From a bacterium (GTDB taxonomy: Bacteria > Actinomycetota > Aquicultoria > Aquicultorales > Aquicultoraceae), in NCBI GenBank assembly GCA_902810715.1, contig CADDYS010000003.1, forward strand, positions 1-58,785: a stretch of 58,785 nucleotides of DNA, written 5' to 3'. The translations under genes were made by a program, and so were the position numbers. Under the pieces are notes generated by a model. The model did no database searches and had not been told where the DNA came from. It worked only from the letters and a program-made list of their open reading frames with translations. Positions 54,710-58,209 of the stretch are shown here, one piece after another (the stretch's first letter is position 1; every line of letters starts with the position of its first letter).

Positions 54710-55210
54710 CTATCGCGGCAAGACGCCCTCCAGAGTAAGCAGTCTCTCTTTCCATCCCCGCTTCCCGCTCCATCCGCCTATGCTTCCATCGCTCTTTAAA
54801 ACCCGGTGGCATGGGACAATTATGGGATAGGGATTTTTTGCCATTGCGTTTCCTACCGCTCTTGCAGCCCCCGGTCTTCCGCAGCGCCCCGCCAATTCCT
54901 TGTATGTAATAGTCTCACCATAAGGTATAGCCATTAAGGTTTCATACACAGTTCTTTCAAAGCCTGTTACTTTACTGTAATCCACCTGGTAATCGAATTG
55001 TACATGCTCTTTTGCGAAGTATCTACCTAAAGTTGAGCATAACTCTTTGCCTAAATCTTCCCTATAGACTGGTTTTCCGAACTTCTCGGCGATTTCTTTC
55101 TCTAATTGGAGCTCGTTCTCTTGCGGAAAGACAATTCCGGCAAGCCCTTTCTCGCTAAAGACAACGGCGCCGTTTCCCCACTCGGTTTTATATATATTAA
55201 AACTTTTCAA
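54710..55210 (-). CDS. ogt: Methylated-DNA--protein-cysteine methyltransferase
   Basis: Repairs O6-alkylguanine by moving the alkyl group onto a cysteine. The active site is IIVPCHRVL, with the helix-turn-helix GETITYKELAGRCGRPGAARAVGNAM before it and the closing GGWSGKRGWKERLLTLE. 166 residues, single domain. The TTG start overlaps the uvrC stop as TTGA. Linked with uvrC, so a small repair pair. Confidence 0.94.
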   Translation of the reverse strand: MKSFNIYKTEWGNGAVVFSEKGLAGIVFPQENELQLEKEIAEKFGKPVYREDLGKELCSTLGRYFAKEHVQFDYQVDYSKVTGFERTVYETLMAIPYGETITYKELAGRCGRPGAARAVGNAMAKNPYPIIVPCHRVLKSDGSIGGWSGKRGWKERLLTLEGVLPR

Positions 55211-57045
55211 CTTAAACCACCGCCTTGATGGAAGTGCCGGTAGACCCTCTCGGCGATTATGCCGGGTAGAGCCGGTACGGTTTCTAACTCCTCAAGGCTT
55301 GCTTCAGCAATCGCACCGGGTGAACCAAAGTGCTTGAGCAGCAGCCTCTTTCGTCCCTCACCCACTCCCGGGATTTTATCCAGGGTAGACTCAACCATCG
55401 CCTTCCCACGAAGGCGCCTGTGGTAAGTTATTGCAAAACGGTGCGCCTCGTCTCTTATCCTCTGCATTAGTTTCAATGAGTCAGAGTCACGATCAAGCCT
55501 TATCGGCTTGCTTAAACCCGGTGCGTAAATCTCCTCTTCCCTTTTTGCAAGACCAAAGACGGGTACATCGTTAAAGCCTGTCTCCTGAAGCGCAGATATT
55601 GCAGCAGATAGCTGTGGCTTACCGCCATCAACAATAACCAGGTCGGGCATATCCGAAAAGGATGGGTCAAGCTTGGCTTTCTGGTGTTCAAACCGGCGGC
55701 TTACAACCTCGCGCATCATTGCAAAATCGTTCATACCCTCAACATAAGCGATCTTAAATTTCCGGTAATCATCCTTAAACGGGCGCCCGTCCTTAAAGAC
55801 CACCATCGACCCAACTGAGTTGCGCCCGTAAATGGTTGATATATCAAAACACTCTATCCTTTTAGGCAGGCCAAGAAGACCTAAGTCTGCGGTAAGGGCC
55901 TCAAGAACCCTGGCCGAGGCCTCCTTCTCCCAGGAGTGCTTCATAATAGACATACTTAAGGCATACTGGGCGTTTGCAGCCGCCATATCTAAAAGCTCGC
56001 GCTTGTTTCCCCTCCGCGGAACTTTTAGCGAGACTTTGGTGCCCCTTAAGCTGCCCAGTAGCTCTTCTATTAACCCGCCGTCCTCAACCCCGGTGGGCAC
56101 GAGTACCTGCGGTGGTATCGAGGTGGAGTTAATATAGTTTTGCTTTATAAACGCGCTTAAGATGTCCTCGTTCGATTTGCCTCGATCCAAGATAAAGTTC
56201 TTGCTTCCGATAAGCTTGCCGCCACGCACCACCGAGAGATTTATGCATCCAATAGCCCCGTCGATGCTTAAGCCCAGGATATCGAAATCCTCGCCCGTCT
56301 CGGATACGATCTTTTGTTTCTGCAATACCAGCCTGGCGGCCTCGAGCCTGTCTCTGGCTCTTGCGGCATGCTCGAATTCCAATCTTGCCGACGCATCGTT
56401 CATCTCGGCCTCCAGCTGGCTGATTACCGGCTCGGGGTTGCCTTCCAAAAACATCTCGACTTTCTCAATCATCGCCCGGTACTTGCCTTTTGAGACAGCC
56501 CCAATACACGGGCCCAAACACCTTTTTATATGATAATTTAAGCATGGCGAGCCGGTTGACTTCCCGGGCTTGCCGCGCTTACACGTCCTAAACGAAAATA
56601 TCCGCCGTAACGTATCAAATGTCTCCCTGACCGCCTGCACACTCGTGTATGGGCCGTAATACTTCATGCCGCGCCGGTGGTGCTCCCTGGTTATCATGAC
56701 CCGTGGATAATCATCCTGCCAGGTTATCGCGATATACGGATAGCTTTTATCGTCTCGGTAGGACACATTGAAAGCCGGCCGGTATTTCTTTATAAGGTTC
56801 GCCTCAAGAACAAGCGCCTCGATTTCACTGCCCGTGACATAAAACTCAAAATCTGCAATCCGCTCAATAAGAGCCCTGGTCTTCGGCGAGTGGTCGCCGC
56901 TGTTAAAATACGAGCGCATGCGAGTTCTCAAGGACTTCGCCTTGCCCACATATATGACCCGGCCATCTGAGTCATGGTAGATATAAACACCCGGGTCGGC
57001 AGGTACGCTTTTTAGTTGTTCGACAAGCCTACTTCTGTTTTGCAT
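55207..57045 (-). CDS. uvrC: Excinuclease ABC subunit C
   Basis: Makes both incisions in nucleotide excision repair. Domains in order: GIY-YIG nuclease (GVYIYHDSDGRVIYVGKAK), Cys-containing region (CKRGKPGKSTGSPCLNYHIKRCLGPC), UVR motif, RNase H-like nuclease (IECFDISTIYGRNSVGSMVVFKDG, VDGGKPQLSAA) and C-terminal helix-hairpin-helix pairs (LDKIPGVGEGRKRLLLKHFG). 612 residues, complete. ATG with GAGAT upstream. Confidence 0.97.
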   Translation of the reverse strand: MQNRSRLVEQLKSVPADPGVYIYHDSDGRVIYVGKAKSLRTRMRSYFNSGDHSPKTRALIERIADFEFYVTGSEIEALVLEANLIKKYRPAFNVSYRDDKSYPYIAITWQDDYPRVMITREHHRRGMKYYGPYTSVQAVRETFDTLRRIFSFRTCKRGKPGKSTGSPCLNYHIKRCLGPCIGAVSKGKYRAMIEKVEMFLEGNPEPVISQLEAEMNDASARLEFEHAARARDRLEAARLVLQKQKIVSETGEDFDILGLSIDGAIGCINLSVVRGGKLIGSKNFILDRGKSNEDILSAFIKQNYINSTSIPPQVLVPTGVEDGGLIEELLGSLRGTKVSLKVPRRGNKRELLDMAAANAQYALSMSIMKHSWEKEASARVLEALTADLGLLGLPKRIECFDISTIYGRNSVGSMVVFKDGRPFKDDYRKFKIAYVEGMNDFAMMREVVSRRFEHQKAKLDPSFSDMPDLVIVDGGKPQLSAAISALQETGFNDVPVFGLAKREEEIYAPGLSKPIRLDRDSDSLKLMQRIRDEAHRFAITYHRRLRGKAMVESTLDKIPGVGEGRKRLLLKHFGSPGAIAEASLEELETVPALPGIIAERVYRHFHQGGGLS

Positions 57046-57055
57046 AAATCAATCT

Positions 57056-58117
57056 CTACTTGCCAAACACTTCTTTCTCCCTCAAATATTTTATAACCTC
57101 ACCGAAATTTTTATAAGGTACGTGCGGGATTCCTTTCTCTTTGCAGTGCTTAAGCAGGCTGTCCTTTGCAAAAACCAGGTCGGCATGCTCGGCAGCACAC
57201 CTGTCAGACAGTCCGTTCCCGATGTATATTACAAAATCCGCACTCTTTCGCTTTGCATCCATAACAAATTTTTTGCAGTTCGCACACTGAATGCACTCGG
57301 GGTGCTGGTTGCTAAACTCAAGGGTAGGCCTACCGCCTTCAAAGAAAAGCCGATTTGCATAGTACTCAAGATCGAAGTGGCCGTAGCGGCCCAGTATCCT
57401 CTCTATGAAATAATCAAAACCATCGCTTACCAAATAGATCGGGATATTGGACTTCTCGCTCTGCCGAACAAAGTCGCTGAAATGTGGGTCGATCTCCACC
57501 CCATCGACAAAAGCTTTTAGCTCGTCTTCGGTCGCATCGACCAGTGACCAGCACTTCTCGTATAGCTCGACCATAGATATCCTGCCCTCATGCCACTCCC
57601 AATCGATATCCGTCCACTTATCTTTAAGCCATACGGTAAAAATCGTATCGGATACATCATGCGTGCTGATGGTACCGTCAAAGTCGCAAAGTATCACGGG
57701 GTTTTTACGCACGGCCGCACGGACGCTCTCGGCCAGGATATCGGCAAGAGTCATGCTTTTTAGCTTGGATACGACCGCCTCTTGAACCTGGCCCATCGCC
57801 AACTCAAGCAGGTGCTCTATGATGTCGTAAGAGTCGCCTTCCTTAAGGCAATTGCTCAAGGCAAGCGGACCTTCAACAGCCTCGATTAATTCTAAGAGAC
57901 TTATCTTGGATGCCGGGCGGGCAAGGCCGTAGCCTCCCCCGATACCCCTCCTGGAGATTAGAATTCCCGCTTTTTTAAGCATCTGCAACGTCTTAGCCGC
58001 AAAAGAGACAGATAGATTCTGCGCTTCCGCGATCTCGCTTGTATCGCATGTTTTCGCGCTTTTTGCCAGGTAAAGCGCGCTTAGGATAGCGTACTCCGAT
58101 TTCTTGGTAAACTGCAT
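57056..58117 (-). CDS. Rrf2-family regulator fused to a HAD-type phosphatase
   Basis: Residues 1-134 are an Rrf2 winged-helix regulator (KKSEYAILSALYLAKS, LSVSFAAKTLQMLKKAGILISRRGIGGGYGLARP); only one cysteine (Cys90) is present where cluster-binding Rrf2 proteins have three. Residues 140-350 form a HAD phosphatase of the MtnX/SerB type: DFDGTIS (145-151), VSDGFDYF (230-237) and IGNGLSDRC (299-307), with CIQCANC at 275-281. The reading frame is continuous without an internal stop. ATG with AGGAGG. The fusion suggests a regulator that senses or processes a phosphorylated metabolite. Confidence 0.88.
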   Translation of the reverse strand: MQFTKKSEYAILSALYLAKSAKTCDTSEIAEAQNLSVSFAAKTLQMLKKAGILISRRGIGGGYGLARPASKISLLELIEAVEGPLALSNCLKEGDSYDIIEHLLELAMGQVQEAVVSKLKSMTLADILAESVRAAVRKNPVILCDFDGTISTHDVSDTIFTVWLKDKWTDIDWEWHEGRISMVELYEKCWSLVDATEDELKAFVDGVEIDPHFSDFVRQSEKSNIPIYLVSDGFDYFIERILGRYGHFDLEYYANRLFFEGGRPTLEFSNQHPECIQCANCKKFVMDAKRKSADFVIYIGNGLSDRCAAEHADLVFAKDSLLKHCKEKGIPHVPYKNFGEVIKYLREKEVFGK

Positions 58118-58160
58118 ATTCCTCCTGTTTATCTTGTTTATCCTTTAGAGCATAAAATCG

Positions 58161-58173
58161 GACAATTTTTGTC
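58161..58173. promoter_or_regulatory. Small palindrome, candidate Rrf2 operator
   Basis: GACAATTTTTGTC has perfect 5-bp arms and lies between the candidate promoter (58183-58209) and the start of the Rrf2-HAD gene. Rrf2 proteins often repress their own genes. Tentative. Confidence 0.3.
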
Positions 58174-58182
58174 TTGTTTTAA

Positions 58183-58209
58183 CTTATATCCTACCTGCAT
58201 GAATGTCAA
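58183..58209 (-). promoter_or_regulatory. Candidate promoter of the Rrf2-HAD gene
   Basis: On the minus strand a perfect TTGACA is followed after 15 bases by TATAAG. The spacer is shorter than optimal, which is common where a regulator assists or represses. Confidence 0.5.

Follow-up and report, generated by a model that had tools for sequence, protein, structure and literature searches.

Does a single gene in this bacterium join a DNA-binding regulator to a phosphatase, and if so, what would such a protein control? The question arises from a stretch of 58,785 nucleotides (hereafter, the window) of an actinobacterial genome (G000; 2.43 Mb, 98% complete, draft, 153 contigs), for which a first-pass annotation had described an Rrf2 regulator and an MtnX/SerB-type phosphatase in one continuous frame. 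That description is borne out, as positions 57056-58117 of the minus strand form a single open reading frame of 353 aa with an ATG start and without an internal stop, and both domains score over their profile cut-offs. The features of the locus are as follows.

58183..58209, minus strand: promoter TTGACA-N15-TATAAG, just upstream of the candidate operator; kept in all five carriers of the fusion.
58160..58174, minus strand: palindromic candidate operator AGACAAAAATTGTCC, in all five carriers; resembles the IscR type-1 core.
57056..58117, minus strand: Rrf2-HAD fusion gene (P0001), 353 aa; from the open reading frame, Pfam/NCBIfam profiles, and relatives.
57731..58108, minus strand: Rrf2 winged-helix domain, residues 4-129; Ala41 aligns with Glu43 of E. 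coli IscR (recognition helix).
57062..57703, minus strand: MtnX-like HAD-IB phosphatase domain, residues about 139-352; DFDGT, VSDGF, C-x2-C-x2-C-K, GNGLSD.
57272..57295, minus strand: CIQCANCK motif, residues 275-282; a usual feature of MtnX-like proteins.
55207..57045, minus strand: uvrC, 10 bases past the fusion stop; the next gene in the five carriers, and also after the free-standing HAD gene of the relative G011.
54710..55210, minus strand: Ogt-type alkylguanine-DNA methyltransferase, with a PCHRV active-site motif read from the sequence; overlaps uvrC; order the same in relatives.

In a draft of 153 contigs, an assembly error or frameshift might have fused two genes artificially, and the first-pass annotation had held that relatives with two separate genes and a stop between them would point to such an error. 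We found the fusion in one open frame, without a stop, in G000-G004, five species within a single actinobacterial family, one of which is also represented by the public actinobacterial record JAJYQA010000008.1. Because the same frame recurs in four other members of this family, an artefact is ruled out for practical purposes by five independent frames. Separate genes with an intervening stop were not seen within the family, and the free-standing HAD gene of G011 has no adjoining Rrf2 gene. Identity to the window's fusion over the whole length was 82% in G001, 66% in G002, about 65% in G003, and 56% in G004. Comparison of G000 with G001 indicated purifying selection on both the Rrf2 domain (dN 0.091 vs dS 0.69) and the HAD domain (dN 0.09 vs dS 1.0), and the linker is variable in length, being about 18-20 residues longer in the G004 fusion. 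No further Rrf2-fused MtnX-like HAD was detected in a sample of 396 genomes from the phylum, where the other proteins match from about residue 126-142, and a plasmid search returned neither a fusion nor a match covering 80% of the query. Coarse literature searches found no description of an Rrf2-HAD architecture and no relevant paper on MtnX-like phosphatases. We conclude that the fusion is real, conserved, and lineage-restricted.

The fusion was assigned to the Rrf2 family of regulators by Pfam Rrf2 (PF02082, residues 4-129; 107.3 bits vs a cut-off of 30) and NCBIfam TIGR00738 rrf2_super (97.4 vs a cut-off of 73.3), and its second part matched Pfam HAD (45.1 bits, cut-off 27, residues 142-310) as well as the MtnX-like HAD-IB profile TIGR01489 (99.5 bits vs a subfamily cut-off of 81.55), which places the phosphatase at about residues 139-350. 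The equivalog cut-offs for IscR (TIGR02010; 57.6 vs 207.55 bits), MtnX (103.4 vs 303.2 bits) and, by far, SerB (TIGR00338; 28.2 vs 144.15 bits) were missed. An AlphaFold2 model built from 50 aligned sequences showed two confident domains (mean pLDDT 92.1); the Rrf2 part matched the structures of RsrR, CymR, and IscR, and the HAD part matched B. subtilis MtnX (2fea) first, followed by phosphoserine phosphatase (1f5s).

Gene order places the fusion first in a tight predicted operon, fusion-uvrC-ogt, in which the 10-base gap between the fusion and uvrC in G000 compares with an overlap of 4 bases in G004. In G011, which belongs to another family of the same order, a free-standing MtnX-like HAD gene lies directly before uvrC and is followed by uvrC-ogt-rapZ-yvcK-whiA-gap-pgk, as at the fusion locus, suggesting that the free-standing gene looks like the ancestral state and that an Rrf2 domain was later added to it. 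The Rrf2 parts of the fusions formed one clade (support 99/96), consistent with a single origin of this domain. The fusion was absent from G005-G010; lepA is directly followed by uvrC in G006, G008, G009, and G010, and other sequence lies between the two genes in G005 and G007. Mapped on a UvrC tree, the presence of the fusion requires three changes, a pattern that would fit one gain and repeated loss of the whole gene within the family, although support is weak at several forks. The gene is dispensable, because several members of the family lack it, and this weighs against the regulatory reading favoured below.

The upstream regions suggest what the regulator domain may do. In 5/5 carriers, which do not amount to five independent cases since the regions of G000 and G001 are largely shared, a palindrome lies within about 10-20 bases downstream of TTGACA-N15/16-TATAAG, namely GACAAAAATTGTC in G000 and G001, GACTAAAATAGTC in G002, GACAAAAACGGTC in G003, and GACTAATTTAGTC in G004, where it is contained in a larger perfect palindrome (about 33 bp). 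The E. coli IscR type-1 consensus is ATASYYGACTRWWWYAGTCRRSTAT (PMC3899308). At the level of sequence, the arrangement expected of IscR-like autoregulation, a type-1-like operator at the gene's own promoter, was found with 11-13 of 13 positions of the core GACTRWWWYAGTC matched (13/13 in G002 and G004; 11/13 in G000, G001, and G003), the flanks being different. When the sequences were shuffled, a core score as high as that observed arose 0 to 29 times in 1000. Control regions, upstream of the G011 HAD gene and of uvrC in G005-G008, gave core scores of 8-10, no better than chance, and the palindrome is absent before the free-standing HAD gene of G011. This promoter and IscR type-1-like palindrome, common to all five carriers, are new in the present analysis. 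We regard the candidate operator as convincing, and its placement over the expected transcription start suggests repression.

The candidate operator is the only such site in the window, and exact matches are few genome-wide. Two further matches in G000 both lie within predicted coding regions and are probably due to chance, on which ground a wider regulon in the window's genome was rejected. In G004, three more near-identical intergenic palindromes were observed (C23:42471, C34:143309, and C34:221599; L131, L133, L134), one before leuC, one before aldolase-mtnA genes, and one elsewhere; these could belong to a regulon or represent a dispersed repeat.

Regulators of the Rrf2 family are known chiefly as sensors that carry an Fe-S cluster. 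The three cysteines of the Fe-S regulators IscR, NsrR, and RirA are incomplete in the window protein, which keeps one (Cys90), in the G002 fusion, which likewise keeps one, and in the G001 fusion, which keeps none; the G003 and G004 fusions keep all three, as C-x6-C-x4-C. The window's genus has thus lost the set that these two other family members keep. The earlier count of one cysteine out of three holds for the window protein, where the loss of two of the three ligands makes an Fe-S cluster unlikely, as had been supposed. All five fusions carry Ala at the position aligned with Glu43 of IscR. The E43A substitution lets apo-IscR bind type-1 sites, for which the cluster is otherwise required (PMC5411485; PMC3899308). 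However, NsrR also has Ala at this position and yet loses DNA binding together with its cluster (PMC5411485), so that Ala alone is no proof of cluster-free binding; Ala41 is consistent with, and only suggestive of, cluster-free binding to a type-1 site.

The window fusion shares with E. coli IscR the Rrf2 winged helix, a type-1-like operator core, and a place first in its own operon with autorepression, the latter being predicted for the fusion. Unlike the fusion, IscR has no HAD domain, and unlike IscR, the window protein is without two of the three Fe-S ligands, has Ala for Glu43, and reaches 57.6 of the 207.55 bits of the IscR cut-off. CymR is an Rrf2 regulator without the Fe-S ligand set that is regulated through a partner enzyme, CysK. 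The enzyme partner of CymR is a separate protein, whereas the window fusion carries a different enzyme, covalently joined.

The fused enzyme domain has HAD motifs I (DFDGT), II (VSDGF), and III (CK) in intact form. At motif IV, 4/5 fusions read GNGLSD, where Asn replaces the first Asp, as does the free-standing HAD of G011; the G004 fusion reads GDGNSD. The first-pass claim of a complete set of HAD motifs stands for motifs I-III and needs qualifying for motif IV. The Asn found in four fusions might be taken to mean that the domain is non-catalytic and acts only as a ligand-binding sensor, but we consider this quite unlikely, as the same Asn occurs in the free-standing enzyme of G011, G004 keeps the Asp, the nucleophile, general acid, Ser, and Lys are intact, and dN of the HAD domain is far below dS. 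The Lys of CIQCANCK is likely the HAD motif III residue, and the first-pass annotation had suggested that CIQCANC may bind metal. Because C-x2-C-x2-C-K was found in about 29/33 fused and stand-alone MtnX-like phosphatases, the motif belongs to the enzyme family and is rejected as a metal site peculiar to the regulator, although it may nonetheless bind metal.

With regard to the substrate, the HAD domain is closest, in both sequence and structure, to B. subtilis MtnX (2fea), with which it shares a cysteine-rich stretch before the Lys. Unlike MtnX, to which its identity is 28%, the fused domain misses the MtnX equivalog cut-off and occurs in genomes without acireductone dioxygenase. This enzyme (PF03079), which catalyzes the next step of the methionine salvage pathway after MtnX, was absent from 10/10 genomes searched, so that a role in methionine salvage is unlikely, and the methylthioribulose-derived substrate put forward earlier is disfavoured by both observations. 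MtnA is present in the family; its gene neighbour, read from the sequence, is either a class II aldolase-like gene or one for S-adenosylhomocysteine hydrolase.

The HAD domain might instead fill a gap in the serine pathway, as its phosphoserine phosphatase. In none of 15 genomes (G000 and 14 relatives) did a SerB score pass the curated threshold, SerA was over its cut-off in 12/13 genomes, and phosphoserine phosphatase is the second structural match. However, G005-G009 have SerA and no MtnX-like HAD, whether fused or free-standing, G037 has the HAD and also a histidine-phosphatase-like gene that separates serA from leuA, and the SerB score is 28.2 of 144.15; we find this role poorly supported and very unlikely. 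The histidine-phosphatase-like gene of G037 may supply the serine-pathway phosphatase in that genome.

MtnX-like HAD-IB phosphatases paired with a class III aminotransferase match the same TIGR01489 profile, with about 35-40% identity to the fused HAD; unlike the window fusion, they are free-standing and adjoin the aminotransferase gene. Such conserved gene pairs were observed, often, in distant lineages, namely Actinomycetota and Pseudomonadota plasmids (L042, L043, L145, L146, L147), and rhizobial pairs also occur with an arginase-family gene. The aminotransferase was rejected as a functional partner of the fused HAD, there being no orthologue in the window's family.

We favour the hypothesis, which we hold to be somewhat better than an even bet, that the fusion is an autoregulatory transcription factor with an attached enzyme domain, repressing the fusion-uvrC-ogt operon; autorepression is its most likely function. 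An Rrf2 dimer of the fusion would bind the palindrome, overlap the transcription start, and repress its own operon. The ancestral fusion probably held an Fe-S cluster, as the three cysteines in G003 and G004 suggest, and the window's genus would have lost it, with Ala41 allowing binding to the type-1-like site. The predicted output is the level of the fusion itself and of the repair genes uvrC and ogt, since the fusion stop lies 10 bases before uvrC and uvrC overlaps ogt. The HAD domain probably retains phosphatase activity or, failing that, binds phosphometabolites, and may either supply the derepressing signal or simply be an enzyme under its own control.

Metabolite sensing by the HAD domain is possible. 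The specific proposal that the HAD replaced the Fe-S cluster as the sensor in a cluster-free Rrf2 protein, so that occupancy or phosphorylation of its active site by a phosphorylated metabolite sets uvrC-ogt expression, seems to us unlikely. Alternatively, a working phosphatase and an ordinary Rrf2 autorepressor may be uncoupled, the joining only keeping both together. The variable linker, the intact catalytic motifs I-III, and the free-standing HAD of G011, which shows at the same locus that the enzyme does not need Rrf2, accord with this alternative; retention of the fusion in five species and loss of the Fe-S ligands in one genus, as if a new signal had been acquired, argue weakly against it, and we rate it as a genuine but doubtful possibility.

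Under the favoured autorepressor hypothesis, the relatives that keep or lose ligands over a similar operator offer a natural series from a cluster-dependent to a cluster-free repressor with a replacement signal, and the candidate operator is short and exact, which makes the idea testable in vitro. If sensing by the HAD domain were true, regulation of the genes for nucleotide excision and alkyl repair would be linked to a metabolite, and an Rrf2 repressor with such a sensing HAD domain would be a trigger enzyme of a new type.

A separate observation concerns mtnA (methylthioribose-1-phosphate isomerase; G000:C62:8953-9942, L060; also L058, L056, and L063), which contains a single in-frame TGA (ILHH*NAG). 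G005 and the three species of the window's genus carry this TGA, which sits exactly at the Cys of ILTHCNAG in G003, G004, G008, and G011, making it a candidate selenocysteine codon at what is probably the catalytic cysteine. Each genome with a TGA-containing mtnA has a tRNA-Sec match above the Rfam cut-off, the best match in G001 barely passing (47.3 vs 47), and a possible hairpin was observed 3' of the TGA.
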